Of a stretch of DNA of 36,025 bases, positions 1,738 through 26,294 are shown piece after piece (the first letter of the stretch is position 1; every line of letters starts with the position of its first letter). The DNA comes from Cytophagales bacterium (GTDB lineage: Bacteria; Bacteroidota; Bacteroidia; Cytophagales; Cyclobacteriaceae). A program made the position numbers and the translations under genes. Below the pieces are notes generated by a model. It was not told where the DNA came from. It did no database searches and saw nothing but the letters and a program-made list of their open reading frames with translations. The stretch lies in assembly GCA_013298505.1 (NCBI GenBank), contig JAAFHY010000027.1, forward strand, positions 1 through 36,025. The letters are read 5' to 3'.

Positions 1738-1748
1738 GATTTCAATTT

Positions 1749-1838
1749 AAGATGTGACATTTACGATTTATGATTTTCGATTACGAATCTTTTAGCTCCT
1801 GACTTCTATATTCTAACTTCTAACTTCTATCTTCTAAT
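1749..1838. repeat. Word-like low-complexity intergenic repeat (copy A)
   Basis: The spacer between two minus-strand genes reads on the plus strand as GATGTGACATTTACGATTTA-type words, followed by tandem variants of CTTCTAA (GACTTCT, ATTCTAACTTC, TAACTTCTATC). Bases 1803-1828 match 15427-15452 over 26 nt with a single mismatch. The tract runs almost to the stop codon at 1842. No stem with a T-run was seen, so it does not look like a terminator. Confidence 0.7.
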
Positions 1839-1841
1839 TCC

Positions 1842-2498
1842 CTACTCAAACTTCACACTCTCTGCCAATGTGCGCTCATCGTATTTCACTCCGTACTGAT
1901 CTAGTACATCTTGAGGCACACCATCCCATTGATTGACTTTGTTGCCCATGTAGCCAATGTCTGCCAACCCAATTTTGCTGGTATAAAAACCAGTGGCCGT
2001 TAAATCGCGCAGCAAATTAAAAAACGCAACGCCTTGGCTCATTTCAGGTTTGGCTCTTTCGGGGAAGGCGATTTCGTCCACCATTTCTATTTGTTGTGCA
2101 GATGAGCAATCGGTAAACTGCTTTGCATATCGCTTCACGCATTGTAAGTCAAGCCATTTCAATCCGCCCCGCATGGGTAATTGATGACGTGGCATATCCT
2201 TCACAATAAAATCAATGAAAGCGGGTACCTCAGCCTCGGTGGCACTACCTGATATGTCATCCTTCGGAATGATAATATCAACCAATAGGGTGATGGCGGC
2301 CAATTCATGCTCATCTAAAAATTTCTCTGCCGAAACTTTTTTGAAATGCTCTACTTCATTTGGCTGGCGATCATGCCCTCCATTGATTTTTGTCAAATCG
2401 GGTGCTTCCTCTTTTTTTTCAGGAGCGCATCCTTGCAATAATACACCGGTTGCTAAGGTGCCGACTGCCAGGGTTTTTAAGTATTTTCTTCTGTCCAT
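1842..2498 (-). CDS. Gluconate 2-dehydrogenase subunit 3 family Tat-lipoprotein
   Basis: The 218-residue product resembles the small subunit (gluconate 2-dehydrogenase subunit 3 family) that pairs with FAD-dependent GMC sugar dehydrogenases. The N-terminus has twin arginines (MDRRKYLKTL, R3-R4), a hydrophobic core and a lipobox ending LLQGC (C24), so it is predicted to be Tat-exported and lipid-anchored. In characterised relatives, the small subunit carries the only Tat signal and takes the GMC subunit across the membrane with it. Here the partner immediately upstream (GMC, 2571-4310) has no signal of its own, which fits that arrangement. Membrane side and partner are inferred. No cytochrome c subunit is present nearby. 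Confidence 0.85.
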   Translation of the reverse strand: MDRRKYLKTLAVGTLATGVLLQGCAPEKKEEAPDLTKINGGHDRQPNEVEHFKKVSAEKFLDEHELAAITLLVDIIIPKDDISGSATEAEVPAFIDFIVKDMPRHQLPMRGGLKWLDLQCVKRYAKQFTDCSSAQQIEMVDEIAFPERAKPEMSQGVAFFNLLRDLTATGFYTSKIGLADIGYMGNKVNQWDGVPQDVLDQYGVKYDERTLAESVKFE

Positions 2499-2570
2499 TA
2501 TGCTCGTTGTTAGTTATTCGTTTTTTGTTGTTCGACCGGCTACGACTAACCAATAACGAACAACGATCAA
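2499..2570. repeat. Intergenic inverted and tandem word repeat (copy E)
   Basis: The 72-base spacer between the GMC gene and the subunit-3 gene contains arms TCGTTGTTAGTTATT (2504-2518) and AATAACGAACAACGA (2552-2566). These are complementary over 15 nt with one mismatch, enclosing about 33 nt. Further GTTGTTCG words lie inside. The spacer is almost entirely composed of variants of GTTGTTAG/GTTATTCG. It may fold in RNA between two genes that otherwise look like one transcription unit. Confidence 0.6.
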
Positions 2571-4310
2571 CTAAATATTCTGTTTCTTCATCTCATCAAT
2601 AATATACTCACTCGCCCGCATCGACAACGCAAGTATCGTCCACGTAGGGTTTTTGTCGGCTTGCGAAACAAACGGGCCGCCATCTACCACAAAAAGATTT
2701 TTGCAATCGTGCGCTTGGTTAAACGAGTTTAATGCCGATTTCTTTTTGTCGTTGCCCATGCGCACTGTGCCTACCTCATGAATAATCCGTCCAGGCGTTT
2801 CCAAACCATAGTTATCTTCTGCTCCATTAATTCCCCATGTAATGTCGCCACCCATTTTGTGAATGATCTCTTGAAATGTATCCTGCATATGCTTGGCTTG
2901 CTTGATTTCATAGTCGCTCCATTTGTAATGAAAGCGTAACACAGGTATTCCATACTTGTCAACTACGTTAGGATCAATCTCACAGTAGTTATCTTCTCGG
3001 GCAATTGCTTCACCGCGCCCGGCCATCCCAAAGCTCGCTCCATAGTAATAGCGGTAATCCGCTTTCAACGATGCACCATAACCTCCTGCTGGTTTCATTT
3101 TTCCGTCAGCCCCAGGATATTTTCCGTTTAGATGTTGAATGCCACCACCAAATCCATAGCTAGGCATTCCCATTCCACCCCAGTATTCAATATGGTAGCC
3201 GCGAGGGAAATTCAATTTTTTATTATCCAACCACCAAGGTGAATATAAATGTAAGCCACCTACGCCATCTTCGTTGTAGCGTTTTCTATTAAAAAGTTTC
3301 GGAAGCACACCACCCATTGCCACGCCAGTAGAATCATGCAAGTATTTTCCAACCACATTACTTGCGTTGGCTAATCCATTTGGGTGTGAGGCAGATTTTG
3401 AGTTAAGCAATAAGCGCGCTGACTCGCCAGCGCTAGCTGCCAATACAACTATGCGTGCACTGAGTTGGTATTCTTGCAGGTCGTCTTTACTCACATACGA
3501 TATACCCGTTGCTTCCCCTTTTTCGTTGGTTAAAACTTCGCGCGCCATGGCGTTGGCGATCACATCTACATTACCAGTTTTAACGGCTGGGTTTACTAAC
3601 ACAGATGAGGATGAAAAATCGCCATGCACGGTACAGCCTCTGTTGCATTGCGAGCAATAGAAACACACGCCACGATCTTCATTAATTTTTTTGGTGAGAA
3701 TAGATAGGCGAGAGGGAATGACTTTAATACCTAGGGAAGTAGCAGCATCTTTTACAAATAGTTCGTGTAAGCGGGGCTTTGGTGGAGGAAGAAAAATCCC
3801 ATCGGGTTCATTGTAAATTCCTTCTTTCGTGCCAAACACGCCAATGAGTTTATCTACTTTATCATAATAGGGAGCCACGTCATTATAACCGATGGGCCAA
3901 TCTTCGCCCAAGCCATCAATACTTTTATGTTTGAAATCGTTGGGGCCAAAGCGCAATGAAATCCTTCCCCAGTGGTTGGTGCGCCCGCCCAACATGCGCG
4001 ATCGAAACCAATCGAATTGGGTGCCATTTTTTTGTGTGTACGGTTCTCCTTCCAACTCCCACCCGCCATAGGCTGCATCAAAATCCCCGAAAGGGCGGAA
4101 ACTTGTTCCGGCACCTCTACGTGGCGACTCGTACGGAAATTTTAATTGAGTTACGTTTTTGGCTGGATCATACAGAGGCCCCGCTTCTAGCAAAGCAACT
4201 TTTACACCTGCATTGGCTAGAACATACGCGGCCATTCCACCACCTGCACCCGAGCCAATGATTACTACATCGTAGGTTTTGGGATTTTTTTTGATTTGAA
4301 AATCAGGCAT
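2571..4310 (-). CDS. GMC oxidoreductase (FAD sugar/glycoside dehydrogenase large subunit)
   Basis: This 579-residue flavoenzyme has the FAD-binding motif GSGAGGG (19-25) followed by LLEAGP (40-45), and a C-terminal GMC catalytic pair H511 (HEVGTVRMG) and N554 (NPTWTI). A CX2CX2CX3C cluster (C216, C219, C222, C226) sits between the FAD and substrate parts. Comparable cysteines bind an Fe-S cluster in FAD-dependent glucose/fructose-type dehydrogenases that pass electrons to a cytochrome. The protein has no signal peptide, but the next gene encodes a Tat-signalled small subunit, so hitch-hiker export is likely. It oxidises a sugar or glycoside alcohol by family inference; the exact substrate and electron acceptor are unknown. 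It is the first gene of a three-gene minus-strand set. Confidence 0.9.
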   Translation of the reverse strand: MPDFQIKKNPKTYDVVIIGSGAGGGMAAYVLANAGVKVALLEAGPLYDPAKNVTQLKFPYESPRRGAGTSFRPFGDFDAAYGGWELEGEPYTQKNGTQFDWFRSRMLGGRTNHWGRISLRFGPNDFKHKSIDGLGEDWPIGYNDVAPYYDKVDKLIGVFGTKEGIYNEPDGIFLPPPKPRLHELFVKDAATSLGIKVIPSRLSILTKKINEDRGVCFYCSQCNRGCTVHGDFSSSSVLVNPAVKTGNVDVIANAMAREVLTNEKGEATGISYVSKDDLQEYQLSARIVVLAASAGESARLLLNSKSASHPNGLANASNVVGKYLHDSTGVAMGGVLPKLFNRKRYNEDGVGGLHLYSPWWLDNKKLNFPRGYHIEYWGGMGMPSYGFGGGIQHLNGKYPGADGKMKPAGGYGASLKADYRYYYGASFGMAGRGEAIAREDNYCEIDPNVVDKYGIPVLRFHYKWSDYEIKQAKHMQDTFQEIIHKMGGDITWGINGAEDNYGLETPGRIIHEVGTVRMGNDKKKSALNSFNQAHDCKNLFVVDGGPFVSQADKNPTWTILALSMRASEYIIDEMKKQNI

Positions 4311-4473
4311 TCGTTTTTAGATCAATTGAAGTGATTAAAAATAGGAATGAATTGGTGGTTTAGCAAACCGCTGGTGTAAGTTTATTTTATCCTGCAAAGG
4401 GAAATTAACAATACGCTAAATGAAAGAAATCGATAACGTCTCCATAGCAAATTGCTATTTAGCTCCACATGCG

Positions 4474-4507
4474 TTTGCAATAAGAATACTTCGGATTGGT
4501 ATATTTG
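4474..4507 (+). promoter_or_regulatory. Putative Bacteroidota-type promoter of the S9 peptidase gene
   Basis: TTTG at 4474-4477 is followed after 22 nt by TATATTTG at 4500-4507, an exact match to the Bacteroidota -7 consensus TAnnTTTG. Predicted transcription would begin just upstream of the ATG at 4528. This argues against the longer frame opening at 4420, which would span the promoter. Confidence 0.5.
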
Positions 4508-4527
4508 TTATACTTAATTCATCAACA

Positions 4528-6570
4528 ATGAAAAAGCTTTTTCTACTCCTTTTCCTATCTGCTGTTGAGCCGTGTTGCGCGCAAACGTTGCTAGAGCAAT
4601 TCTTAACGGCACCCACCGAGTCAGGTTTTGCATCATCGAAAGATGGGAAGAATATTGGTTGGGTGATCAATGATCGGGGCAAGCGAAATATTGTCGTAAA
4701 AACCGGAACAGACCTTCCGCGGTTTGTTACAGACTATCCAGCGGATGATGGGCAAGAGATTTCGCAACTCGTCTTTTCACCGAACGGACTCAAAATTTTG
4801 TTTGTGCGTGGAGGAGCATCTAACCGTGCGGGACAAAACCCTAATCCATCTAGCATTAGCGAAGGAGTTGAGCAGGCGATCTACTTCAAAGATATTGGCA
4901 ATAAAAGTGCACCTTCAAAAATTGTATCGGGCAATAGTCCGTTGTTTTTTCGTGATGGATTGAAGTTTTTGTTTTCGAAAGGAGGTCAGATTTTTGAATC
5001 GACATTAGAGATAAACGCAGAGCCTAAGCCTTTTTTTTTGGCAAGAGGGTATAACAGTCGCCCTCTCTTTTCTCCTAACGGAAATGATGTGTTGTTCACC
5101 AGCGATCGTGGTGATCACAGCTTTGTGGGCATCTACAGTTTGATTTCAAAAACGATAAAATGGATTGCCCCTGATGTAACTTTTGATCAACTCCCTGTGT
5201 GGTCTCCCGATGGCAAGAGTGTTGCGTTTATTCGTATGCCGGGCAGCAAAATAGGTGAACTTGAAAACTTTACCATTGGCTTACCTTTTAGCCTAGTGGT
5301 AGCTGAAATTGAATCGGGTATAACCAAAGTGATTTGGAAATCGCCAACATCAGATGGCGGATTTGCACAGAGCTATTCAACTAACCCTATCACCTGGACA
5401 ACTACAAATCGCATCTTGTTTCATTCCGAACACACAGGATGGAACCATGTTTTCTCAATAAATCCTGATGGCAGCGATCTGAAGGACATCACACCTGGCG
5501 ATGGAGAAGTCGAGAGTTTCGTGGTTGATGCTTCTGGGCAAAACATCTATTTCGATGGCAATCACGAAGACGTTAACAGGCGACATATCTGGAAGTCATC
5601 GGTAGTGAATGGAAACCCGAGCGCGGTAACTAACGGAGAGGGGATTGAAATGTATCCGATGCTCGCTGGCAGCGATGTGTATTGCCTTCGTTCTTCATTT
5701 AATTCGCCTAAAGCAGTGGCTCGAGTCGAAGAATCGAAAAAAATGACTGCACAATTATTCCCACAAAAACTTGTGGCTTTCAATTCATCATTATTTGTGA
5801 AGCCAGAGGCGGTAACGTTCAAAGCTCCAGATGGCACAGTTATTCACGGGCAACTTTTCATTAACAGAACCATTGCGATTAAAAGACCGGGCGTTGTTTA
5901 TATGCACGGAGGTCCCACACGTCAAATGTTACTCGGCTTTCACTACAGCGATTATTATAGCAACTGCTATGCGTTCAATCAGCTTCTGGCAAATCAGGGT
6001 TATGCTGTTTTAGCAGTCAATTTTAGAAATGGAATTGGGTATGGTCGTGACTTTAGGATGACAAAAAACCAAGGACCACGAGGTGCCACTGAATACCAAG
6101 ATGTAGTGGCAGCTTCCAAGTTTTTGCAGAGCATGCCAGAAGTAGATGCTGCAAAGATTGGGTTATGGGGTGGTTCGTATGGTGGTTACCTTACTGCGAT
6201 GGGGCTGACGCGGAATCCAGAAATTTTCAAAGCAGGTGTTGATTTACATGGTGTGCACGATTGGTCTTTTGATGGGCAAGATGCAACTAATAGCTGGGGA
6301 TTGTTGAAATCAGAATCAGAGCTGGCTAAAAAGTCATCTCCAGTGGCAGATCTTTCTAAATGGATAGCGCCTGTCTTGATGGTTCATGGTGACGATGATC
6401 GTAATGTAAATTTTCAGCAGACTATTGATTTGGTGGAAAGATTGAGAGCTAAGAACGTGCCTGTTGAGTTGCTCGTCCTGCCCGATGAGGTACATGGGTT
6501 CTTGCGCTACGAAAGCTGGTCACGAATTTTTACTGCGGCCAAAGACTTTTTTGATAGGAAGCTGAAATGA
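4528..6570 (+). CDS. Secreted S9 family (prolyl oligopeptidase-type) serine peptidase
   Basis: The 680-residue product starts with a signal peptide (MKKLFLLLFLSAVEPCCAQ). A TolB/WD40-like beta-propeller follows, with repeated 'SPNG/SPDG' blades (LVFSPNG, PLFSPNGNDV, VWSPDGKSV). The C-terminal alpha/beta hydrolase has nucleophile S550 in GGSYGG, D624 in HGDDD and H656 in DEVHG. This is the classical S9 architecture, cleaving short peptides after Pro or other residues, probably in the periplasm. The start is set at 4528 rather than 4420 because the signal peptide begins there and a promoter lies just upstream. The stop overlaps the sirtuin start (ATGA), so the two are probably co-translated. 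Confidence 0.92.
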   Translation: MKKLFLLLFLSAVEPCCAQTLLEQFLTAPTESGFASSKDGKNIGWVINDRGKRNIVVKTGTDLPRFVTDYPADDGQEISQLVFSPNGLKILFVRGGASNRAGQNPNPSSISEGVEQAIYFKDIGNKSAPSKIVSGNSPLFFRDGLKFLFSKGGQIFESTLEINAEPKPFFLARGYNSRPLFSPNGNDVLFTSDRGDHSFVGIYSLISKTIKWIAPDVTFDQLPVWSPDGKSVAFIRMPGSKIGELENFTIGLPFSLVVAEIESGITKVIWKSPTSDGGFAQSYSTNPITWTTTNRILFHSEHTGWNHVFSINPDGSDLKDITPGDGEVESFVVDASGQNIYFDGNHEDVNRRHIWKSSVVNGNPSAVTNGEGIEMYPMLAGSDVYCLRSSFNSPKAVARVEESKKMTAQLFPQKLVAFNSSLFVKPEAVTFKAPDGTVIHGQLFINRTIAIKRPGVVYMHGGPTRQMLLGFHYSDYYSNCYAFNQLLANQGYAVLAVNFRNGIGYGRDFRMTKNQGPRGATEYQDVVAASKFLQSMPEVDAAKIGLWGGSYGGYLTAMGLTRNPEIFKAGVDLHGVHDWSFDGQDATNSWGLLKSESELAKKSSPVADLSKWIAPVLMVHGDDDRNVNFQQTIDLVERLRAKNVPVELLVLPDEVHGFLRYESWSRIFTAAKDFFDRKLK

Positions 6571-7265
6571 GCAAAAAGAAGTTGGTTGCCCTTACTGGTG
6601 CAGGCATCAGTGCCGAAAGCGGCATCGCCACCTTTCGTGATTCCGGTGGGCTTTGGGAGGGACACAAGGTAGAAGACGTAGCAACGCCCGAAGGATGGGA
6701 GAGGAACCCGAAGCTTGTCCTTGACTTCTACAACGAACGCAGAAAGAAGGCACTTGAATCAAAACCAAATCGTGGCCATGAGATTCTAGTGGAATTAGAG
6801 AAACAATTTGACGTAACCATCATCACCCAAAACGTAGACGACCTGCATGAGCGAGTCGGCTCAACCAACGTCATCCATCTCCACGGTAAGTTGTTTGAAT
6901 CACGCAGCACTATAAACCCTTCATTAATTTACCCGATTGAAGGTTGGGAATTGAAGCTAGGCGACTTGTGTGAGCAAGGGTCGCAACTGAGGCCCAACAT
7001 TGTTTGGTTTGGTGAGGCCGTGCCCATGATTGAAGTGGCTTCCATCATCGCTAGCACTGCAGATATTTTTTTAGTAGTGGGCACTTCGCTACTCGTATAC
7101 CCAGCCGCTGGGCTCATCGATTATGTACCGGATCGTGTAAAGAAGTTTGTGATCGACCCACAGAAGCCTGATATACTTCACGTGCCCAACATCGAGTTCA
7201 TTACCGAAAAAGGGAGCGTGGGGCTGGCTAAGCTTAAAAGTAAATTAGGTCTTAGTTTTTCGTAA
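6567..7265 (+). CDS. Sir2 family NAD-dependent protein deacylase lacking the zinc cysteines
   Basis: A class III-type sirtuin of 232 residues. The NAD loop is GAGISAESGIATFRD (11-25), TQNVD lies at 87-91 and the catalytic His is H106 (HLHG). Y55 and R58 in FYNERR match the acyl-pocket Tyr/Arg of CobB/SIRT5-type enzymes that prefer succinyl or malonyl lysine. The region that normally holds four zinc cysteines (about 110-140) has only C135, so the structural zinc site is absent; related Bacteroidota proteins look the same. It overlaps the upstream peptidase by 4 bp (ATGA) and its 3' end overlaps the convergent thioredoxin gene by 14 bp. Cytoplasmic lysine deacylation is inferred from family. 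Confidence 0.88.
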   Translation: MSKKKLVALTGAGISAESGIATFRDSGGLWEGHKVEDVATPEGWERNPKLVLDFYNERRKKALESKPNRGHEILVELEKQFDVTIITQNVDDLHERVGSTNVIHLHGKLFESRSTINPSLIYPIEGWELKLGDLCEQGSQLRPNIVWFGEAVPMIEVASIIASTADIFLVVGTSLLVYPAAGLIDYVPDRVKKFVIDPQKPDILHVPNIEFITEKGSVGLAKLKSKLGLSFS

Positions 7266-7833: not shown

Positions 7834-7947
7834 CTATCACAATTTAATATTGAGGCTATATAAACGGCCTTTTCATTTTGGCTTAGTTATTGAAAGATTT
7901 TTAGCAAATGTCTATAATTTGATAACTTCGACCAATTAAAAATTGAA

Positions 7948-9744: not shown

Positions 9745-9783
9745 TTTTTCTCATCGCGAATGTCGCAGTACTTATTAAGTAAG

Positions 9784-11029: not shown

Positions 11030-11040
11030 TGTTAAAATTT

Positions 11041-11112
11041 TTAAACGTATGATTTTAGATTTAAAAGTGAGTTAATCTCCTAACTTTTAAATTCTATCTT
11101 CTGACTTCTTTT
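11041..11112. repeat. Word-like low-complexity intergenic repeat (copy B)
   Basis: The spacer between the E2 gene and the cystathionine-family gene contains GATTTTAGATTTA words followed by CTCCTAACTTTTAAATTC, TATCTTCTGACTTCTTTTCT. The order (ATTTAGAT-type words, then CTTCTAA-type words) is the same as in copies A and C on the same strand. It reaches the stop codon at 11113-11115. Confidence 0.6.
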
Positions 11113-14933: not shown

Positions 14934-15374
14934 ATGTATAGCTTTTTGGTAGTTGCTCATTCGCTAGTTCGTTACTTTCTTTTGATCGCCTTGATTTTGG
15001 TAATTATTCGCTCGCTTATGGGCTGGATGAACAAGTCGGCATACTCGAAGTTAGATGATAAGTTGAGTTTAGGATTGTTTATGCTTACACACACGCAACT
15101 TTTGTTAGGGATTATTTTGTATTTCATAAGCCCCATTGTGATTTTCAGTGGTGCGTCTATGAAAGATCCAATCGCTCGCTATTGGTTAGTCGAGCATAAT
15201 ACAGGAATGATTATTGCAATCGTGCTGATAACGATGGGACGCATCACCATGAAAAAGCTGACAGACGGTGTAGCTAAGCATAAAAGGCTTTTTATCTTCA
15301 ATGCAATTGCGTTGGTAATTATTTTGGCAATGATTGCACAAAGCCAGCGTGGTTTTTTTGGAGTAACTTATTAA
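14934..15374 (+). CDS. Four-TM cytochrome-b-like membrane protein
   Basis: The 146-residue protein is almost all membrane, with four segments: about 5-26, 47-66, 90-108 and 121-138. Histidines lie in or next to the segments (VAHSLVRY, LTHTQLLLG, VEHNTGMI, AKHKRLF), the layout expected of bis-His heme ligands in small cytochrome-b-type proteins. Similar Bacteroidota proteins are commonly labelled cytochrome B. Heme binding is inferred from His placement only. It is divergent from the ion-channel gene and is followed by the OmpA-family gene after a repeat-filled spacer. Confidence 0.65.
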   Translation: MYSFLVVAHSLVRYFLLIALILVIIRSLMGWMNKSAYSKLDDKLSLGLFMLTHTQLLLGIILYFISPIVIFSGASMKDPIARYWLVEHNTGMIIAIVLITMGRITMKKLTDGVAKHKRLFIFNAIALVIILAMIAQSQRGFFGVTY

Positions 15375-15381
15375 AATTTAT

Positions 15382-15455
15382 GATGTGAGATGTTAGATTT
15401 AAGATTTCAGAACTTCTAACTTCCGTCTTCTATATTCTGACTTCTAACTTCTTCA
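15382..15455. repeat. Word-like low-complexity intergenic repeat (copy C)
   Basis: The spacer between the cytochrome-b-like gene and the OmpA-family gene reads GATGTGAGATGTTAGATTTA, AGATTTC, then CTTCTAACTTCC, GTCTTCTATATTC and TGACTTCTAACTTCTTC. Bases 15427-15452 match 1803-1828 with one difference in 26. The tract ends 2 bp before the next ATG, so it forms most of the leader of that gene. Confidence 0.7.
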
Positions 15456-15457
15456 AG

Positions 15458-17221
15458 ATGAAATACCCGATTCTAATTTTACTTTGTCTCGTAGGTTCTG
15501 TTTTATGTGCTCAAGAAATCAGTCCACGCTATGAGTTGGTGAAGATGAATGACAATGTGAACACTCGCTACAATGAGGTGTCTCCAGTCATTTCCCCCGA
15601 TGGCAAAAGTCTTTATTATTTCGTGGCCAACCATCCTGAAAATACCTATGGAAAAGAAGGTAGCCAAGATATTTGGATTTCTACCTTAGATGATAAGGGG
15701 CAGTGGGCAAAGGCAACTCACGCTGGTTCGCCTTTAAATCAAAATCGATTTAATCAGGTTTTTAGTTTTCTACCCGATGGTTCTATTTTTATTCGAGGCG
15801 GCAGATCAAAAAATTCAAAAGGATTTTCGTTGGTTAGCCCAGGAGGCGGATTGACTGAGTTGGCGGTTACCGATTTTGATAAGATGGACAAAGGCATATT
15901 TAACGGAGCAACTATTTCGTCAGATGCCAAGCAGGTTATCATGTATTTTGCCGAAAAGGAAAAGGATAAATTCAGCGATCTTTATTTGTCTTCAAAGCAA
16001 CCCGATGGGCATTATTCTAAGCCAGTTAAATTAAAAATCAGTTCGATTGCCGATGATTACGCGCCCTTTTTAGCACCCGATCAAAAGACACTTTATTTTG
16101 CCAGCAATCGCTTTGTTAAAGAGAGGGTAGGGGGCAGCGATATTTATAGAACCACCCGATTAGATGATAGTTGGTTGAATTGGTCTGAGCCAGTTAACCT
16201 TGGCCACGCCATAAATACGCCTTCCGAAGACGCCTATTTTTCTATTGACGCAAATGGAAATATTTTTACCGCTCGTGCGGGTGCCACGGTAGATGGTGGT
16301 AATTTTGATTTGTTGATTTTAAGACCACGCAACATTAAAATTACCTTGGCGGGATCTGTCTATAATCAAAAAACACAACAGCCTATTTCATCGGCAATTG
16401 AGGTGAAGATGAAAGAACAAAAGCCGGTAAATCTAAAATCCTCTGCACTCGGAAAATTTGAAACACGCATTCCCGAAATACCTGCCTATACAATTACTGC
16501 GGCTTCTGCTGGTTATTTGCCCTTTACCCAAGATTATAAAGTTCCGGCAAAATTAACGCGCGATACTACCCTTCGCGTTGAAATTTATCTTACCCCCATT
16601 GCCAAACAACTTACTTTGGTGGGCGATTTGATTGACAAAAAGACAAATAATCGGTTGCTTTCTGGTAAAGTAGCTATTGTATCGAAGGCAGAGCGCTCTA
16701 ATCAATATACCGTTGCGACTGTTGAGGGTCGGTATTCACAAGACATTCCCGGGTTGGGCTGGTATTTGTTTACGGCATCGGCCGAAGGCTACTTAAACGC
16801 CACCGATAGTGTGCAGGTTGATAACCCTGATGTAACACCCACAGTTAAGAATATTTTTTTAACGCCTATTGAAGTGGGTTTAACAGTGCGATTGAAAAAT
16901 ATTTATTTTGATTTTGATAAAACCACGCTTAAGTCAGAATCATTTGTGGAGCTTAACAAAGTAGTGGATTTCTTAAAACAAAACTCAAAAGTTTCAATCG
17001 AGATTGCAGGGCATACCGATAGCAAAGGATCTGATACCTACAATGCCAACTTATCGCAAGGCAGATCGCAGTCGGTGGTAGATTACCTCGTTAGTCAAGG
17101 AATTGACGCTTCTCGACTCGAAGCGCATGGCTATGGCGAATCAAAACCAATTGATAGCAACGAAACCGATGAAGGCCGCGCCAACAATAGAAGAGTAGAG
17201 TTTACGGTGTTGAAGATGTAA
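15458..17221 (+). CDS. OmpA family protein with PD40 repeats and carboxypeptidase-regulatory-like domains
   Basis: 587 residues. Signal peptide 1-18 (MKYPILILLCLVGSVLCA). Residues 30-285 hold WD40-like PD40 blades (VISPDGKSLYYF, FLAPDQKTLYFASNR, GGSDIYRT). Residues about 292-470 hold two Ig-like or carboxypeptidase-regulatory-type modules (LAGSVYNQKTQQPISSAIE, LVGDLIDKKTNN). Residues 482-587 are an OmpA peptidoglycan-binding domain (IYFDFDKTTL, GHTDSKGSD, GRANNRRVEF). It is probably an envelope protein tethering the outer membrane to peptidoglycan; similar proteins occur in gliding and secretion clusters, but no partner gene is next to it here. Confidence 0.92.
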   Translation: MKYPILILLCLVGSVLCAQEISPRYELVKMNDNVNTRYNEVSPVISPDGKSLYYFVANHPENTYGKEGSQDIWISTLDDKGQWAKATHAGSPLNQNRFNQVFSFLPDGSIFIRGGRSKNSKGFSLVSPGGGLTELAVTDFDKMDKGIFNGATISSDAKQVIMYFAEKEKDKFSDLYLSSKQPDGHYSKPVKLKISSIADDYAPFLAPDQKTLYFASNRFVKERVGGSDIYRTTRLDDSWLNWSEPVNLGHAINTPSEDAYFSIDANGNIFTARAGATVDGGNFDLLILRPRNIKITLAGSVYNQKTQQPISSAIEVKMKEQKPVNLKSSALGKFETRIPEIPAYTITAASAGYLPFTQDYKVPAKLTRDTTLRVEIYLTPIAKQLTLVGDLIDKKTNNRLLSGKVAIVSKAERSNQYTVATVEGRYSQDIPGLGWYLFTASAEGYLNATDSVQVDNPDVTPTVKNIFLTPIEVGLTVRLKNIYFDFDKTTLKSESFVELNKVVDFLKQNSKVSIEIAGHTDSKGSDTYNANLSQGRSQSVVDYLVSQGIDASRLEAHGYGESKPIDSNETDEGRANNRRVEFTVLKM

Positions 17222-17226
17222 TGTTG

Positions 17227-17301
17227 GGCATTAGGACTGAGGACTTAAGATGCTTTAGATTTCTGCGAGTTTGTTTCACTCAATTCGCAAGTCCCAATGC
17301 C
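17227..17301. terminator. Composite inverted repeat between convergent genes, possible terminator
   Basis: GGCATTAGGACT (17227-17238) pairs with AGTCCCAATGCC (17290-17301) with one mismatch. An inner stem GCGAGTT (17265-17271) pairs with AATTCGC (17282-17288). It lies just after the OmpA-family stop (17221) and just before the end of the convergent DUF2007 gene (17307). There is no clear T-run, so the terminator role is tentative. Confidence 0.4.
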
Positions 17302-17306
17302 TAGCC

Positions 17307-17543
17307 CTAATCACTAATGTCTGATAACTCATCGAGAATTCCCTTCGCCTGTTCAAAATCCCTCTCGAAAATATGCAGCCGCACGCCTGGGAAAATATCA
17401 TTGCGGAGTGGATAAAGGTTGGTAAAATTTCCTTCAGTGAGGAAACAGGGTATGCCGTATGCATCTAATTTAGTTTTGGCTATATTGGCAGCAATCACAT
17501 TGTCGAAGGACTCGTAGATGATGATCTTTTCTGCTTCTTCCAT
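17307..17543 (-). CDS. DUF2007 family small protein
   Basis: Starting from the ATG at 17543 the product is 78 residues; an upstream in-frame TTG at 17552 would add three. The sequence (IIIYESFDNVIAANIAKTKL, then AYGIPCFLTEGN and PGVRLHIFERDFEQAKGIL) matches the DUF2007 fold, a small ferredoxin-like domain described as a putative signal-transducing protein. No signal peptide or membrane segment. It is alone on the minus strand, convergent with the OmpA-family gene and divergent from the ECF sigma gene. Function is unknown. Confidence 0.8.
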   Translation of the reverse strand: MEEAEKIIIYESFDNVIAANIAKTKLDAYGIPCFLTEGNFTNLYPLRNDIFPGVRLHIFERDFEQAKGILDELSDISD

Positions 17544-17669
17544 AGTTAACAATATAAGTCAATTTACTTAAAAGCGTAGCCTGTTTATTAGATTTCTTGG
17601 ATAACTTAGAGTCTTGAAGAATCAATTTGAAGCTTGTCTAATTGGTTGTTGATGAAATTAGTAACTCTC

Positions 17670-17824: not shown

Positions 17825-17837
17825 AGCTTTTGAAACG

Positions 17838-18849: not shown

Positions 18850-18881
18850 AAACGAATTAAAAACCTTAAAATAGATAAGTT

Positions 18882-19430: not shown

Positions 19431-19440
19431 TATGTTCTGC

Positions 19441-19479
19441 AATCGCCCATTGCGTAGTATGTGCATGGGCGATTTTTTT
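19441..19479 (+). terminator. Rho-independent terminator after the first DUF4252 gene
   Basis: AATCGCCCAT (19441-19450) and ATGGGCGATT (19465-19474) are perfect 10-bp arms around a 14-nt loop, with a T-run through 19479. It lies 10 bp beyond the stop at 19430. A frame opening at 19432 would run through it, which argues for the later start of the next gene. Confidence 0.85.
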
Positions 19480-19533
19480 AGAAAATACATCTTCTTTTAC
19501 TCTTTCACGTTAAGCAATTTAATCGTATCGAAA

Positions 19534-20127: not shown

Positions 20128-20167
20128 TAATGCCGTATCGGTTCTCGTAATAATTTAACTGTAGTGT

Positions 20168-21064
20168 ATGAGTGATGTAGTACTTTCAATCAATAAGCTA
20201 ACCAAGAATTTTGGAAAACTGTGTGCAGTTAACCAATTAGACTTGGAAGTTAGGAGAGGGCAAATTTTTGGAATGCTCGGCCCTAATGGCAGCGGCAAAA
20301 CCACTACGCTAGGTATGCTGATGGGAGTTACCAACCCTACCTCGGGTAGCTTCACGTGGTTTGGCGAAGCGGCTACACATCATACTAGAAAGAAAATCGG
20401 TGCAGTATTGGAACATCCTATTTTCTACCCATATCTCAGTGGCCAGAAAAATTTGGAGTTGAATGCGATGGTAAAAGGAGCAGACCCTGCCAACATTGCT
20501 AAGGTGCTAGATATTGTCGAGCTATCTGCTCGCAAAGACGATAAGTACAAAACCTATTCACTAGGGATGAAGCAACGGCTGGCAATTGCCTCGGCATTGG
20601 TGAGCGATCCGATCATTTTAATTTTAGATGAGCCTACCAACGGGCTAGATCCGATGGGTATTGCCGAGATCAGAGAGATTGTGAAGCGAATTGCTGCCGA
20701 TGGTAAAACAATTATTTTGGCAAGTCATTTACTAGATGAAGTGCAAAAAGTATGTAGCCACTTTGCGGTATTGCGAAAGGGGAAATTAATGCATAGTGGC
20801 CCTGTAGATGAAGTTGGAAAAGGAGAGGAGACGGTGGAAGTAATGGCCTACCATGATGATTTGGCAGTATTGCTGCAAGAGTTTATTGGAAGCGGCTCGA
20901 TCAAAAAGGAAAACGGAGTTTATCAGGTGACGATGAAAGACGGTTTTCATAGCCAAGACTTAAATAAGTTCTTGTTTGAAAAAGGAATTGTTACTTCTCA
21001 TTTGGCCACCAAGAAAAAAACCTTGGAGAAACAGTTTTTAGAAATATTGGCAGAAGCACATTGA
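20168..21064 (+). CDS. ABC transporter ATP-binding protein
   Basis: 298 residues, an ABC-2 type ATPase. Walker A GPNGSGKTT (38-46), signature SLGMKQR (131-137), Walker B LILDEPTNGLDP (151-162) and the switch His H187 in ASHLLDE are all present, so it should be active. The C-terminal 80 residues form the extra domain seen in drug or antibiotic efflux and lipid export ATPases. The permease gene follows after 91 bp on the same strand. Substrate unknown. Confidence 0.92.
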   Translation: MSDVVLSINKLTKNFGKLCAVNQLDLEVRRGQIFGMLGPNGSGKTTTLGMLMGVTNPTSGSFTWFGEAATHHTRKKIGAVLEHPIFYPYLSGQKNLELNAMVKGADPANIAKVLDIVELSARKDDKYKTYSLGMKQRLAIASALVSDPIILILDEPTNGLDPMGIAEIREIVKRIAADGKTIILASHLLDEVQKVCSHFAVLRKGKLMHSGPVDEVGKGEETVEVMAYHDDLAVLLQEFIGSGSIKKENGVYQVTMKDGFHSQDLNKFLFEKGIVTSHLATKKKTLEKQFLEILAEAH

Positions 21065-21155
21065 AAAAGTTGACAGTCGAGCAATTGACAAGTATAAATA
21101 TCAAATGGCTGTTTGCAAATCTTAAATCAAAACTCTTAAAATTTTAAATTCGAAG
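21061..21155. repeat. Spacer of repeated words between the ABC ATPase and permease genes
   Basis: The spacer contains TTGACAGTCGAGCAATTGAC (21070-21089), in which TTGACA occurs twice, then AT-rich words such as AAATCTTAAATCAAAACTC. TTGACA at 21070 with TATAAA at 21093 and 17 nt between them also looks like a sigma-70 promoter of enteric type, which is unusual for Bacteroidota. Whether it is a promoter or another member of the word-repeat spacers is unresolved. Confidence 0.35.
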
Positions 21156-21974
21156 ATGCTTCATCTACTAAAAATCGACTTAAAGAAAATGACAAGCTAC
21201 CGCACCTTTTGGGTAATATGCGGTTTGTATTTTCTTACGCTAGGTTTTACTACCGCAAGTGGCATGGAAATTCTGCGGTGGTTTGCCAATAAGACGGTTG
21301 AATTTGGTGCTTCTATTAATATTGATCGAATCCCTCTTTATCATTTTCCTGATATTTGGCAAAACCTGATTTGGATAAGCGGACTGTTTAAGTTAGTGTT
21401 AGCAGTAATGGTAGTAATTTCCATTACCAACGAATATCAATACCGTACGCTGCGCCAAAATATTATTGATGGCATGAGCCGATGGGAATTTGTATTGTCA
21501 AAAATACTTACCAACGTGTTGTTGAGTGTAATGAGCGTGGGCATGTTACTCTTGATAGCTATTGTAACAGGTTTGATATATACGCCAGAATTAATTTTGG
21601 CTGATGTGTTTATCGGTACAGAATTTTTGCTCGCTTATTTTTTAGAGGTCTTTGCTTTTTTGTCGTATGCGCTGATGTTGGGCGTTTTTGTTCAGCGGTC
21701 GGGTCTTACCATTGTGCTGCTCATGCTCTCGCACATGATCGAAGCGATCATCAAATTAAATCTCTTCCGCGAAAGCTTAGAGCCAAGTATTGGATGGCTC
21801 AAGCAGTTCTTCCCATTAGAGTCAATAACCAATTTGGTTCCGCTTCCTTTTGCGCGATACGCCTTTCAAGAAATTCAAGATTATGTAAGTTTGACTGCGG
21901 TTGCTATTGCCCTCGTGTGGACATTCTTGTTCAATTACTTTAGTTATTTAAAGTTAAAGAGGGCAGATATTTAG
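21156..21974 (+). CDS. ABC-2 type transporter permease
   Basis: 272 residues with about six hydrophobic segments: near 17-35 (FWVICGLYFLTLGFTTASG), 71-95 (LIWISGLFKLVLAVMVVISI), 118-140, 155-175, 184-200 and 245-263. The early MLHLLKIDLKKMTSYRTFW and the YRTLRQNIIDGMSRWEFVLSK loop are typical of ABC-2 permeases with a coupling helix. It pairs with the ATPase at 20168-21064 to form an exporter. The 179-base spacer after it (21975-22153), to the end of the convergent menE gene, shows no clear element. Confidence 0.85.
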   Translation: MLHLLKIDLKKMTSYRTFWVICGLYFLTLGFTTASGMEILRWFANKTVEFGASINIDRIPLYHFPDIWQNLIWISGLFKLVLAVMVVISITNEYQYRTLRQNIIDGMSRWEFVLSKILTNVLLSVMSVGMLLLIAIVTGLIYTPELILADVFIGTEFLLAYFLEVFAFLSYALMLGVFVQRSGLTIVLLMLSHMIEAIIKLNLFRESLEPSIGWLKQFFPLESITNLVPLPFARYAFQEIQDYVSLTAVAIALVWTFLFNYFSYLKLKRADI

Positions 21975-22153
21975 TTTGCGTTCTTAAGTGACTTCTTTGA
22001 GATGAGTTTCTAATCTACTATTGTCTGATGAATCAGTACTTTCAATTTATTGATAAGTTGGTAAGTGGACGAGCCATATATAGTCTTGAAAATCAAACCG
22101 ATTAGTTCTCTTTTGGTTCTGTCAAATAATTATTGTTGGCGGCTCCGTGTTGG

Positions 22154-23224
22154 TTAGCTCACGACAAGCCCTACCGTTTTTTTTCTATTCACTTTTTGGT
22201 TTTCCGTTTCTACAAACCGATCTAGCATATAAATATTTTTTGGAACTTCATAGTGCCGCAATCGTTCCCGCATTTGTAACTTCAATTGCTCTTGTTCATA
22301 AGCCCGCATGTTTCCTTCTACCAGCAGGGTAACCGATTGCCCAAGAAATGGATCTGGAAAACCCACTACTAAAATGCGATTATAGAGCGATAGATCTGCA
22401 AGAATTGTAGCGATTTGCTTTTCCAAAAATTCGGGTTGCACTTTTATACCCCCTGTGTTGATAATTGAATCCCACCGGCCAAGCCATTTGAACTGCGTTG
22501 TACCTTTACGTTCTACTACATCGTTGGTAATCACCTTTATTTGCAGGTAAGGGATATTTGCCACTAGGCAAGAACGATTATCCGTTTCTATTTCAACGCC
22601 TTGCAACACTGTAAAAAATTCACTTTTACCAGGACCATTCACTTTTCGGAGGGCAATGTGAGAGATTGTTTCTGTCATGCCATACGTTTCATAAAATTGA
22701 GTGTTGAATGATTGCAATTCCGTTTCGAGAAGTTGTGATACTGGCGCGCCCCCCATTAACACCGTTTTTATCTTATTAAGATCAAGTCTGTTATCGGATT
22801 TTAGGATGGCCTGAATTTGATAAGGAACCAGCGCGGCAAAGTCGATAGCGATAGTCGGATTTATTAAGCCAAGTGGATTAGCGGAGGGTGTTGCTAAAAC
22901 CATTTTCATTTTTATTTCAAGGCTGCGTACGAGCATCATCATGCCGCCAACATATTTTGGGTCTAAGCAAATCAGCGATGTTTCGCCCTCGTTCAAATTA
23001 ACTGCTTTCGCGGTGGCCAGCGCGCTTTGTTTCATTTTTGCTCGCTGCAAAATAATTTCTTTTGGCTGCCCGGTCGAGCCAGATGTGTGGATTACAAATT
23101 CTTGTTGCCCATTCAGCCACGCTTTGCAAAATGATATGCATCTTCCTTCAAACGAATCATCTTTCAAATCGGGTAACTGATCAATTTGATATTGATTCTC
23201 TCCGATGGTTATCGTACTGCTCAT
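22154..23224 (-). CDS. menE: AMP-binding enzyme, probable 2-succinylbenzoate-CoA ligase (MenE)
   Basis: 356 residues, the short size of Bacteroidota MenE. The nucleotide loop is HTSGSTGQPKE (46-56), the aromatic/adenylation motif is YGMTET (181-186), and the hinge region reads WLGRWDSIINTGGIKVQPE. The C-terminal lysine-containing loop is ENQKVNRKK. It should activate o-succinylbenzoate with ATP and CoA in menaquinone synthesis. Other men genes are not in the window, so the assignment rests on length and pattern. Its ATG overlaps the stop of the GSCFA gene by 4 bp (ATGA), which suggests coupling. Confidence 0.75.
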   Translation of the reverse strand: MSSTITIGENQYQIDQLPDLKDDSFEGRCISFCKAWLNGQQEFVIHTSGSTGQPKEIILQRAKMKQSALATAKAVNLNEGETSLICLDPKYVGGMMMLVRSLEIKMKMVLATPSANPLGLINPTIAIDFAALVPYQIQAILKSDNRLDLNKIKTVLMGGAPVSQLLETELQSFNTQFYETYGMTETISHIALRKVNGPGKSEFFTVLQGVEIETDNRSCLVANIPYLQIKVITNDVVERKGTTQFKWLGRWDSIINTGGIKVQPEFLEKQIATILADLSLYNRILVVGFPDPFLGQSVTLLVEGNMRAYEQEQLKLQMRERLRHYEVPKNIYMLDRFVETENQKVNRKKTVGLVVS

Positions 23225-24201
23225 GAATTAAGTAGTTGAGATTTCACCACCGTAATTTCATCTTCTACATTTACTTGATCCGAAATCGCAGTTAACTGAC
23301 TAAGTGTTTTCTTTAAAAAAGTTTGATGCGCAGGTGCACTTGGTTGCAACGGCCTATGTGCTAAGGCTTGCCTAATTTTTTCCAATTCATTTAGAAGAAT
23401 TACCGTGGATGAAGAAAAGTAACATGCCTTGAATTTTTCTAAGATATATTCTTCAGCCTCCTCGGTTGGGTGTATACGATCGGTTTTATAAAATCGGTAG
23501 TCACGCAGGTCGTCCATCATTATTTCGTAGGCTGGAAAATAATCGGCACCAAACTCAGTAAGGTTGTGGCAAGCAACGCGCAGAATAGATTTGCTAACCG
23601 AGTTAAGCTGTAGTGTATCTTTCAGATGACGCACTGGGCTTACCGTAGTTATTACTCGAATAGCTGGGTTTATTTTTTTTAAGGAATCAATTAACGACTT
23701 ATACGATGCTAAGATCTCGGACACAGCCAGTAGTTTTTTTTCAAAGAGTTCGGCTGGCATTTTATGGCAGTTGGCCACTACTGAACCTATATCTTTTCGC
23801 ACATAAACAAAAGAAGTGCCGTAAGTAAGCACAATTGCCTTGCAGTTTGTTAAAAAATCTAATGCGTCAGCCAGTTGGGTTTTAATTCGTGTCTGTAAAG
23901 AAGCTCGGTCGGGTTCGCAAAAGTCGGAGTGAAATTGATAATGATAGTGAAGGCCGTCTCGTTCAATAAAACCATCAGGGCTTGGTTCTTTTTGGTGAAT
24001 CGCCATTTCTAATAATGTATGGATTGAAATGGGATTGTAAACCGTTTCGAATGGATTGACCATCGTTTTAAACTTAGAGCGAGTCAAGTAATTACCCAGC
24101 ACATCTGCAAAACAAGATCCGATTGTAAACACAGCATCTTTATTGCTGATGGTTTGGTTAGCCGGGCTTACCGTTAGATCAGTTTTCCATTTGGTTATCA
24201 T
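23221..24201 (-). CDS. GSCFA domain protein (SGNH-hydrolase-like)
   Basis: From the ATG at 24201 the product is 326 residues; a GTG three bases further upstream is less likely. The name-giving motif GSCFA is at residues 28-32 (FTIGSCFADVLGNYL). Later landmarks are NPFETVYNPISI, LTYGTSFVY, TTVSPVRHLKDT and a final RIHPTEEAEEYI, which resembles the Asp/His block of SGNH esterases. The family is thought to be hydrolase-like but is poorly characterised. The downstream gene (menE) is overlapped by 4 bp, so the two are co-translated. A TACTTTTG box at 24235-24242 lies about 30 bp upstream. Confidence 0.9.
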   Translation of the reverse strand: MITKWKTDLTVSPANQTISNKDAVFTIGSCFADVLGNYLTRSKFKTMVNPFETVYNPISIHTLLEMAIHQKEPSPDGFIERDGLHYHYQFHSDFCEPDRASLQTRIKTQLADALDFLTNCKAIVLTYGTSFVYVRKDIGSVVANCHKMPAELFEKKLLAVSEILASYKSLIDSLKKINPAIRVITTVSPVRHLKDTLQLNSVSKSILRVACHNLTEFGADYFPAYEIMMDDLRDYRFYKTDRIHPTEEAEEYILEKFKACYFSSSTVILLNELEKIRQALAHRPLQPSAPAHQTFLKKTLSQLTAISDQVNVEDEITVVKSQLLNS

Positions 24202-24234
24202 CACAAATTTTTTCTAAACTTCTACTATAACGAG

Positions 24235-24242
24235 CAAAAGTA
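24235..24242 (-). promoter_or_regulatory. Putative -7 box (TACTTTTG) for the GSCFA-menE pair
   Basis: On the minus strand TACTTTTG matches TAnnTTTG exactly and lies 33 bp upstream of the GSCFA ATG. The -33 region shows TTTTAG rather than a good TTG. Confidence 0.4.
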
Positions 24243-24281
24243 TCTATTTTTAAGGTTCTAAAACTCATCATTTAGTGCCTT

Positions 24282-26180
24282 ATGTTGTCACAATCTGAAA
24301 TTGAAAAAATACCTACCCGTGTCTTTCAAACATCTGAACTGGCTTCTGTTTTTGTAGCCAACGAAATTGCTTCATTGATTAAATCAAAACAGGCAGAGGG
24401 CAAACATTGCGTATTGGGTTTGGCTACGGGCTCTACACCCACACGAGTTTATGCCGAGTTAATTGCGCTCCACAAAAAAGGCTTGAGTTTTAAGAATGTT
24501 TACACTTTCAATTTGGACGAATATTATCCTATGCTTCCTAATTCGTTGCAAAGTTATGTTCGGTTTATGCACGAACTCTTGTTCGATGAAATTGATATTC
24601 CGCGCGAGAATATTCACATTCCGGACGGCACATTGGCGAAAGATAAGATTGCAGAGTTTTGCAAAGCCTACGATGCCAAGATCGAAAAGTTGGGAGGCAT
24701 TGATTTACAAGTATTAGGCGTAGGCCGAACTGGCCATATTGGATTTAACGAACCTGGTTCCTCCGAGCGATCGGCCACCCGACTAGTTTCACTCGATCAA
24801 GTTACACGCATAGACGCGGCCAGCGATTTTTACGGAGAAGAAAATGTGCCCACCAAAGCAATTACAATGGGCGTTGGCACCATCTTAAAATCAAAACGCG
24901 TGATCATGATGGCGTGGGGCGAGGGCAAGGGTGCCATTGTAAAGCGAGCGGTAGAGGGCCCGATTACGGATCAGATTCCGTCCACCTTTTTGCAGCGACA
25001 CTCGAATACGCTCGTTACTTTAGATGAGGCCGCTGCCTCGCAACTCACAGCTATGAAAACACCTTGGCTGGTAGATAGCTGTGAATGGAACGAGAATCTG
25101 ATTCGCAAAGCAGTGGTGTGGCTCTGCCAAGAATTGAAGAAGCCAATTTTAAAATTGACCAACCACGATTACATGGAGCATGGGATGGGCGATATCATCA
25201 CCGAGTTTGGATCTGCTTATCAAGTGAATATAAAAGTGTTCAATCAACTGCAACACACTATAACAGGCTGGCCCGGTGGCAAGCCCAACGCAGACGATAG
25301 CAATCGACCTGAACGTGCCAACCCGTTTCCTAAACGTGTAATCATATTTAGCCCACATCCCGATGACGATGTAATTTCAATGGGCGGCACATTTATCCGA
25401 TTGGTAGATCAAGGTCATGAAGTACACGTAGCCTATCAGACTTCGGGTAACATTGCTGTGTTTGATGACGATGCCATTCGCTTTGCGGATTTCGTTCGCG
25501 ATTTCGATCAATCGTTTGGTTTAGAAAAAGAAGATGGAGAATCTTTTTACACAAAAATTGTGAAAGCCATAAGAGAAAAAAAACCTGGCGATTTAGATAG
25601 TGCCGAAGTAATGAAAATAAAAGGACTGATAAGAAGGGGGGAAGCGAAGGCAGGATGTCGCTATACGGGAATACCCGATTCGCAGGCTCACTTTTTAGAT
25701 ATGCCTTTTTATGAAACGGGAGCCGTTAAGAAAAAGCCATTGGGCGAAAAGGATATTCAAATTATTATTGATTTGATCGAACAAATTAAGCCACATCAAA
25801 TTTATGCTGCGGGCGATTTATCCGATCCACATGGTACACACCGGGTCTGCCTTTCCGCTATTTTTCAAGCAGTAGATCGCTTAAAGAAAAAAGATTGGAT
25901 GAAGGACTGTTACCTATGGTTGTATAGAGGCGCATGGCAAGAGTGGGACATCGATCAGATTGAGATGGCAGTGCCATTAAGCCCCGATGAGTTGATGCGC
26001 AAACGAAGAGCCATATTTAAACATCAGTCGCAAAAAGACAGTGCAGTATTCCCGGGCAATGACAAGCGCGAGTTTTGGGTACGTGCGGAAGACCGCAATC
26101 ACGCTACCGCGAAAGGATATAACGAACTTGGCCTTGCCGAATACGAAGCGATGGAGGCTTTTGTGAGGTATAGATATTAG
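24282..26180 (+). CDS. nagB: Glucosamine-6-phosphate deaminase / PIG-L (LmbE) deacetylase fusion
   Basis: 632 residues in two parts. The N-terminal NagB-like domain (1-265) has GLATGST (46-52), NLDEYY (77-82, D79 equals E. coli D72) and GHIGFNEPG (151-159, H152 and E157). The residue matching E. coli catalytic D141 is T150. The C-terminal PIG-L/LmbE domain has SPHPDDD (357-363) and DPHGTH (515-520), the zinc-binding residues of N-acetylglucosaminyl-type deacetylases. The fusion is recurrent in Bacteroidota and would join amino-sugar deacetylation to deamination. Whether the NagB half is a real deaminase with T150 is uncertain. Confidence 0.88.
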   Translation: MLSQSEIEKIPTRVFQTSELASVFVANEIASLIKSKQAEGKHCVLGLATGSTPTRVYAELIALHKKGLSFKNVYTFNLDEYYPMLPNSLQSYVRFMHELLFDEIDIPRENIHIPDGTLAKDKIAEFCKAYDAKIEKLGGIDLQVLGVGRTGHIGFNEPGSSERSATRLVSLDQVTRIDAASDFYGEENVPTKAITMGVGTILKSKRVIMMAWGEGKGAIVKRAVEGPITDQIPSTFLQRHSNTLVTLDEAAASQLTAMKTPWLVDSCEWNENLIRKAVVWLCQELKKPILKLTNHDYMEHGMGDIITEFGSAYQVNIKVFNQLQHTITGWPGGKPNADDSNRPERANPFPKRVIIFSPHPDDDVISMGGTFIRLVDQGHEVHVAYQTSGNIAVFDDDAIRFADFVRDFDQSFGLEKEDGESFYTKIVKAIREKKPGDLDSAEVMKIKGLIRRGEAKAGCRYTGIPDSQAHFLDMPFYETGAVKKKPLGEKDIQIIIDLIEQIKPHQIYAAGDLSDPHGTHRVCLSAIFQAVDRLKKKDWMKDCYLWLYRGAWQEWDIDQIEMAVPLSPDELMRKRRAIFKHQSQKDSAVFPGNDKREFWVRAEDRNHATAKGYNELGLAEYEAMEAFVRYRY

Positions 26181-26212
26181 ACATAAGATATACGACATTA
26201 GATATAAGATAT
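26176..26212. repeat. Two copies of a 16-bp word, period 21 bp (part of copy D)
   Basis: ATTAGACATAAGATAT (26176-26191) and ATTAGATATAAGATAT (26197-26212) differ at one base. The first overlaps the stop codon of the NagB fusion. The word resembles GTTAGATTTAAGATTT in the spacer at 15382-15455. Confidence 0.75.
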
Positions 26213-26224
26213 TGATCTATTTGC

Positions 26225-26294
26225 TACTTACTACTTTTTACTTACTACTTGATACTTACTACTTTATACTTACTACTTTATACTTACTACTTTT
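26225..26294. repeat. Five tandem 14-bp repeats TACTTACTACTTNN before exonuclease III
   Basis: Units start at 26225, 26239, 26253, 26267 and 26281. Each is TACTTACTACTT followed by TT, GA, TA, TA or TT. The 12-bp core is identical in all five. The array ends 2 bp before the ATG of the exonuclease gene, so the whole proximal leader consists of repeats. There are no spacers of unique sequence, so it is not CRISPR. Confidence 0.95.

Follow-up and report, generated by a model that had tools for sequence, protein, structure and literature searches.

REP and REPIN palindromes are dispersed, short intergenic inverted repeats with RAYT (Y1) transposases, and the tandem heptanucleotides of the cyanobacterium Calothrix go by the name STRR. 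Our analysis concerns repeats of 7-nt words in the gaps between genes of a Cytophagales bacterium, on a 36,025-nt stretch of DNA (contig JAAFHY010000027.1 of GCA_013298505.1), which is called the window below and is contig C127 within the 3.96-Mb assembly G000. The nearest described systems are the heptads of Xanthomonas and Nostoc, GGGAATC and GGGGA(C/T)T or (GGGANTN)n, which PMC4692102 presents as degenerate, intergenic, mostly codirectional, seldom divergent and of unknown function. Two genomes are said there to hold 70 and 75 convergent pairs, the nearer gene lies on the 5' side, and the same gene pair carries repeats in two species, yet in variable form; we infer from that text that the convergent pairs put the G-rich word first. 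It also mentions three kinds of tandem heptanucleotides in one Calothrix strain. A further class, the TAACTGA direct repeats, is described in PMC4679880 as forming intergenic arrays in Beggiatoaceae, cyanobacteria and five Bacteroidetes, with indels between two close strains mostly in 7-nt steps and with other heptamers sometimes mixed in.

The elements of the window belong to these heptameric intergenic repeats: they have a degenerate 7-nt period, are largely intergenic and come in many copies per word family. An earlier reading of the window from its letters (the original prediction) had considered an undescribed repeat class, which overstated the matter, since PMC4692102 describes degenerate intergenic heptads, convergent pairs included, and PMC4679880 the TAACTGA arrays. 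With the Xanthomonas and Nostoc heptads the present arrays share constant and free positions, an intergenic site, a codirectional bias, pairing of arrays and closeness to the gene on the 5' side; in contrast to that one quadruplex-capable word, several vocabularies occur here and replace each other at one junction, and words such as GTTRNTS and TTCTANN contain no GGG tracts for quadruplexes. They resemble the TAACTGA repeats in being intergenic heptamer arrays with Bacteroidetes included, and are set apart from them by often being paired head-to-head arrays after stop codons. The likeness to the Calothrix tandem heptanucleotides, mentioned in PMC4692102, is at the level of their description. 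Like REP and REPIN sequences they are dispersed, short, intergenic and inverted; unlike them they have little common word order, and some genomes that lack Y1_Tnp have GTT words. In the literature searched, heptad arrays were not reported from this lineage, nor was one vocabulary described as replacing another at orthologous junctions, although subscription papers lay mostly outside its scope and absence is unproven; as far as it reaches, the several vocabularies at one junction are new, and so are the tests of polarity, of base-pair type and of whether words depend on their neighbours or on the partner arm. Our preferred explanation, to which we give a probability of about 0.36, is that these are word arrays at the DNA level whose words are exchanged between loci.

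Distribution, polarity and word content

Periodicity was surveyed in 400 kb of G000 plus the window (436 kb; 33.8 kb intergenic, 402 kb coding), with gene limits throughout taken from longest open reading frame guesses. The original prediction placed its repeats in spacers, and this preference is borne out: the density of period-7 segments was ~22 times higher between genes than within coding DNA. Among strong periodic segments (periods 4-35), intergenic DNA held 11 at period 7, 5 at 14, 7 at 21 and 0-3 at every other period; coding DNA held 6 at period 7 in ~12 times more sequence, and period 7 is nothing special there. Lag identity peaked at 7, 14 and 21 in the codirectional spacers, coding DNA being without a peak at lag 7 or 14, and a joint test (folding z < -2, lag-7 z > 2) selected 12/106 codirectional, 3/25 convergent and 1/42 divergent spacers. 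The relative G009 gave 6 strong segments at period 7, 4 at 14 and 0-2 at others, while plain autocorrelation of its sample had no clear lag-7 peak, lag 6 being equally high; 80 kb of G022 contained zero strong periodic segments.

Further copies in the genome, which a repeat class of the predicted kind would have, were found: the first spacer matched 19 times and the second 17 times (query included; some palindromic loci counted twice, on both strands). Across 40 genomes of the genus, (GTTNNTN)3GTT had 0-71 matches, with the maximum of 71 in G000 (9 for the reversed pattern there, overlapping matches counted) and zero in 6/40; three tandem copies of TTCTANN matched 13 times in G000, 26 times in G024 and not at all in 25/40. 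Such reversal controls are conservative, because reversed patterns may be words of other vocabularies. Reversed TTCTANN was itself frequent in G009, G012 and G023 (21, 23, 18), and the reversed GTT pattern in G007 (16) and G051 (30). A vocabulary is common to the loci within one genome and different between genomes.

Many elements consist of two arrays placed head-to-head, G-containing words first and C-containing words second. GTT-word elements were drawn from G000, G046 and G010, where loci fetched through matches to the GTT vocabulary were added to the random sample. The GTT arm stood 5' and the AAC arm 3' in 36/36 distinct elements (27, 4 and 5 from these genomes; 42 rows). Reverse complementation leaves the arrangement as it is, so this order is a polarity of the element and not of the strand. 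When every vocabulary is counted, the half with the higher G minus C leads in 82 heptad spacers and follows in 20, with 4 ties, as compared with 302, 219 and 33 in other spacers (Fisher p 1.2e-5). The tendency is kept in the 46 heptad spacers that lack strong inverted arms (36 vs 7) and at convergent junctions (16 vs 5), and exceptions exist, such as the CAAAT-type arrays in L083 and L098. For the polarity counts, as for those of context and base-pair type, duplicates were removed by a 25-nt key (this applies to the junction counts as well) and L068, L073, L075 and L088 were left out of the named loci.

Elements have a median length of 68 nt (quartiles 57-88). In 64 codirectional elements, part of them fetched by word match, the medians were 4 nt from the upstream stop to the 5' arm and 15 nt from the 3' arm to the next start, and the spacer outside the element measured 21 nt in the median, against 48 nt in 331 element-free codirectional spacers (p 3e-4). 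At convergent junctions, 11/14 elements start no more than 18 nt from one stop and 11/14 end no more than 13 nt from the other. Elements were found in 2/144 divergent spacers and in 58/578 of all others (p 3e-4; 722 spacers), an earlier context test on a smaller set of 272 spacers having been not significant (p 0.21). The idea that a 7-nt period serves to supply stop codons in all frames was rejected, as GTTGTTC has none.

The GTT words behave as a genome-wide mixed pool, near-independent of their neighbours, partner arm and locus, with phase, core and polarity kept. Words next to each other in G000 arrays had a likeness of 0.496, which does not exceed the 0.525 of words drawn from the pool of all loci (48 arms, 188 words, the GTTNCTG-type loci L226, L228 and L229 left out). 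By a positional method, the two arms of one element had an identity of 0.496 at free positions, and partners exchanged between elements one of 0.479 (p 0.24, 20 elements); in a version using local alignment own arms matched below the random level (16 elements, p_hi 0.9975). These figures bear on the view that the arrays are ordinary, functionless heptameric simple-sequence repeats, 7-nt tandems grown by slippage in non-coding gaps, with inverted pairs and decay doing the rest. Perfect arrays, the intergenic bias and gaps of 14, 42 and 7 nt between certain close relatives speak for it, and PMC4692102 mentions slippage with a link to polymerase contact size. Slippage predicts alike neighbours, however, and those of the GTT vocabulary are not extra-alike and even slightly the opposite, so that local slippage fits this vocabulary poorly; nor would slippage alone spread one vocabulary to dozens of loci or set polarity. 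We consider this explanation doubtful, and the purely local growth by slippage named in the original prediction is disfavored for the best-sampled vocabulary.

Junctions shared between genomes

The gap between the GMC oxidoreductase and Gluconate_2-dh3 genes, junction B, was compared in 48 genomes, which contain close pairs (e.g. L026/L027, L020/L075) and are not independent; 8 duplicate loci and L029, with an overlapping gene call, were left out. A lag-7 array was present in 29 and an inverted repeat in 31 (each at p < 0.05), both in 22/48 and at least one in 38/48, and the gap was under 30 nt in 4/48, the shortest being 5 nt. At the next junction of the same operon (junction A, L012 left out), 6/16 readable genomes had a lag-7 array. 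About seven vocabularies, labelled by eye, share junction B: GTTNNTN, AAGTATC, TTAGTCN, GAGATNT, TTCAAGG, AAATGAT and GTTAAAC. In 9/48 genomes, again by eye, CCCTCTCC-type palindromes take the place of heptads (L017, L021, L026, L027, L028, L052, L054, L066 and L072); their family, CCCCTCTCC ... GGAGAGGGG, has the C-rich half first, the reverse of the heptad polarity. At L032, from a distant genome, the same gap is filled by a palindrome with perfect arms of ~26 nt and without heptad period, and at L073 3357 / L075 a second palindrome, of CCCGATAGCTATCGGG type, sits between the arms of a heptad element.

Closer relatives differ by whole elements or by whole words. L039 and L041 are 95% identical upstream and 77% identical downstream of junction B over 300-nt flanks, and their elements are different from stop to start. 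Other close pairs differ by heptad multiples, 14 nt in L048/L084 and 42 + 7 nt in L092/L096 (another aligner gave 49 for one pair). In Flavihumibacter, GTGAAAC-type arrays flank a terminator-like hairpin at a convergent junction (L092 6405 / L096 6405); between the two species, which are 92% identical, one arm differs by whole heptads and the other in most words. Hypervariability, hinted at by such close pairs, is not claimed: G009/G039 synteny extended over only ~48 kb and had one diverged heptad spacer (32/138 aligned sites), against 19% at fourfold sites. The spacers of L193-L213 (G039 C4 / G009 C21) are either identical or ~25-30% different, which resembles a mosaic from recent recombination.

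RNA pairing, transposition and word exchange

Rfam 15 at gathering score gave 0 matches within the window. A terminator scan of the window, limited to loops of 3-8 nt, returned 42 sites (23 and 19; shuffled means 18.8 and 17.7), none over the listed spacers, in agreement with the original prediction that a terminator role does not explain them. An intercistronic RNA hairpin (mRNA stabilizer, processing or attenuation site), selected for pairing with its sequence left free, might instead be at work: junction B has a significant inverted repeat in 31/48 genomes if non-heptad palindromes are counted, the junctions lie within codirectional runs near the upstream stop, and in L059/L070 one paired position is, by eye, altered on both sides. 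Selection for RNA pairing would favor G-U over A-C mispairs and the best fit between own arms, and neither is seen, which weakens this reading. The 64 codirectional elements have 83 G-U and 94 A-C mispairs on the sense strand (p 0.45), unevenly by set (7 vs 22 in G009/G039, 14 vs 5 in G046), and the arms lack covariation by two methods. Between L011 and L010, moreover, a change in one arm has by eye no partner in the other, and elements A and D of the window lack significant pairing. The hairpin was rejected as the selected feature, the RNA element offered by the original prediction is disfavored, and selection for RNA pairing is to our mind unlikely; the arrays seem to act or spread as DNA and not as folded RNA.

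A small mobile palindrome family, REP- or MITE-like, copied whole by a transposase and later decayed, would account for the fairly constant size, for a vocabulary common to many loci and for the fixed polarity, and is consistent with the small yet significant agreement in word order between loci and with the whole-element difference at L039/L041. That agreement is very small, however, no constant end sequence is apparent by eye, and Y1_Tnp is missing in 7/40 genomes, other transposase kinds not having been searched for. Those seven include G017 (97% complete), with 24 GTT-word matches and a control of 1, G014 (99%), with 12 and 0, G010 (81%), with 33 and 1, and G007 (100%), with 44 but a control of 16; these matches were counted, not inspected singly. 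A REP/RAYT (Y1) mover was rejected. The two Y1_Tnp genes of G000 (L172, L173; C193, C188) are flanked mainly by other, short palindromes of CCCTTTAGGG / GGGCTAAAGCCC type, perhaps the genes' own REP-like set, and the 3' flank of one also contains TTCTAAC-type words. Whole-element copying is rather unlikely in our estimate; the mobile origin listed in the original prediction retains that standing, with no dependence on a Y1/RAYT transposase.

The RNA hairpin, simple local slippage and the RAYT-copied palindrome each fit poorly, on account of the arm, neighbor and Y1 tests, and each keeps some support. In-register exchange is favored because it is the simplest process yielding near-independent sampling from a pool with phase, core and polarity kept. 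In this account, the elements are short non-coding DNAs, typically ~70 nt long, that carry a 7-bp word proper to their genome in a single array or in two placed head-to-head, right after stop codons. Their words would form one genome-wide pool in which arrays at separate loci trade words as DNA through ectopic recombination or conversion, and whole heptads would now and then be added or lost. The arrays of a genome would thus change vocabulary together without losing phase, core bases or polarity, and they would persist where harm is small, that is, behind stop codons and away from promoters.

Several observations weigh against word exchange. No exchange event was caught and no donor-recipient pair traced, and the head-to-head origin has no account under it. 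Words at the same place in different loci agree at 2.05 of 4 positions against 1.97, with 0/400 shuffles as high, a slight agreement in word order that is left over from common descent. Perfect tandems also occur, such as TTCTAAC repeated ~8 times at G000:C55, and resemble ordinary slippage. Gap lengths are weakly tied to 7 (multiples in 14/69 heptad spacers and 3/33 others), and over 48 kb of G009/G039, 4/5 heptad spacers are unchanged and divergence is 0.046, against 0.090 in other spacers, so that there is no sign of a raised tempo. Finally, 223 words have a purine at position 4 in 190 and T at position 6 in 197, with positions 5 and 7 varying; detection itself demands GTT, and some of the loci had been selected with a pattern requiring T at position 6. 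Constant core positions speak against plain exchange, because plain exchange would homogenize all positions. The significance of the word-order excess, the identity of only 77% in the downstream flank of L041 and the paired change in L059/L070 make word exchange slightly less likely, and mobile and RNA origins slightly more so.

The constant positions suggest an added constraint, perhaps a putative DNA-binding protein. Taken further, a protein recognizing a core phased at 7 bp, such as an insulator or a roadblock factor acting at gene ends, could use the arrays as its DNA sites. Three heptads make 21 bp, or two helical turns; some positions are constant and others free, the arms are independent, polarity is fixed, gene ends are preferred and divergent gaps avoided. 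Against this, a genome with several vocabularies, and their replacement by one another at a single junction, would call for several readers, and we find protein sites as the whole explanation quite improbable. A long shot is a hypothetical templated 3'-end extension, telomere-like, in which both 3' ends at a break receive genome-encoded heptad copies and are then joined. If true, it would yield head-to-head arrays of uniform polarity, and each genome would use a single vocabulary at any given time, which would switch when the template changes. Arms would have words in common but in different order, some elements would have one arm only (as at L014), and a target-site signature would be lacking.

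Elements of the window and what they mean

Each spacer was scored by its longest-scoring run of lag-7 matches, with 2000 dinucleotide-shuffled sequences for comparison, and by an inverted-arm score against 60 shuffles (Table 1).

Table 1. Heptad elements and one weak candidate in the window; shuffle counts are those scoring as high
Feature	Position	Strand	Neighboring genes	Lag-7 test	Inverted-arm test	Words and arms
Element A	1738..1841		between Gluconate_2-dh3 and GFO_IDH_MocA (Pfam), both -	23, 0/2000	12, 58/60; arms not significantly complementary	GATTTAC/TATGATT-type, then ACTTCTA-type; G minus C +2 in left half, -12 in right
Element B	2499..2570		between GMC oxidoreductase and Gluconate_2-dh3 (Pfam), both -	15, 0/2000	32, 0/60	GTTNNTN, then complementary-type (vocabulary GTTGTTC / GAACAAC); occupies whole stop-to-start gap
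Element B, 5' GTT-word arm	2501..2522	+				
Element B, 3' AAC-word arm	2548..2569	+				
Element	11030..11112		between 2-oxoacid dehydrogenase acyltransferase and Cys/Met PLP-enzyme, both -	10, p 0.006	23, 1/60	TTTAGATTTAAAAG, then CTAACTTTTAAATTCTATCTTCTGACTTCT; arms 11056-11071 + 11080-11096
Element C	15375..15457		between two + genes, 14934-15374 (no Pfam match) and OmpA-family 15458-17221	26, 0/2000	22, 2/60	TTAGATTTAAGATT (TTAGATT-type), then TTCTAAC; arms 15388-15412 + 15428-15452
Element	17222..17310		convergent: after + gene 15458-17221, before short - open reading frame 17307-17552	p 0.004	22, 0/60	arms 17227-17249 + 17279-17301
Weak candidate	21065..21155			9, p 0.015	51/60	
Element D	26181..26296		between Glucosamine_iso/PIG-L and Exo_endo_phos, both +	35, 0/2000	45/60, not significant	TTAGATATAAGATA, then long TACTTACTACTT array

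The original prediction had read five codirectional spacers as arrays of degenerate short words, and in all five the 7-nt period exceeds that of shuffles, four of them at 0/2000. Its list was incomplete, the convergent junction at 17222-17310 having been overlooked, and its tentative array at 21061-21155 is weak, without inverted arms, and probably not an element. Six further spacers of the window gave no array under the lag-7 test (p 0.18-0.96). A tandem-repeat finder independently reported periods of 7 (and 14, 21 or 28) at 1759-1837, 2504-2534, 15371-15452 and 26169-26294, the last beginning within the final codons of the gene upstream of element D. Inverted arms are significant in 4/7 window spacers (2499, 11030, 15375 and 17222) and not in those at 1738, 21065 and 26181. 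The predicted sharing of 26 nt with one mismatch between 1803-1828 and 15427-15452 was confirmed. The likeness in word order claimed with it holds by eye for the spacers at 1749, 11041 and 15382, the one at 2499-2570 being of another vocabulary; element D joins halves of two vocabularies. The window elements belong to several vocabularies and are not one repeat. Among the best 80 of 485 relatives of one window protein, those with names were Flammeovirgaceae, Cyclobacteriaceae and other Cytophagales, and most came from metagenome assemblies.

Heptad repeats are known from several phyla and are still unexplained. The arrays described here add testable properties: a fixed polarity, vocabularies interchangeable at one junction, words independent of their neighbors, and no signature of RNA pairing. 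Together these properties can serve to discriminate among slippage, transposition, word exchange and a role as RNA, and they bear on the question of why seven.

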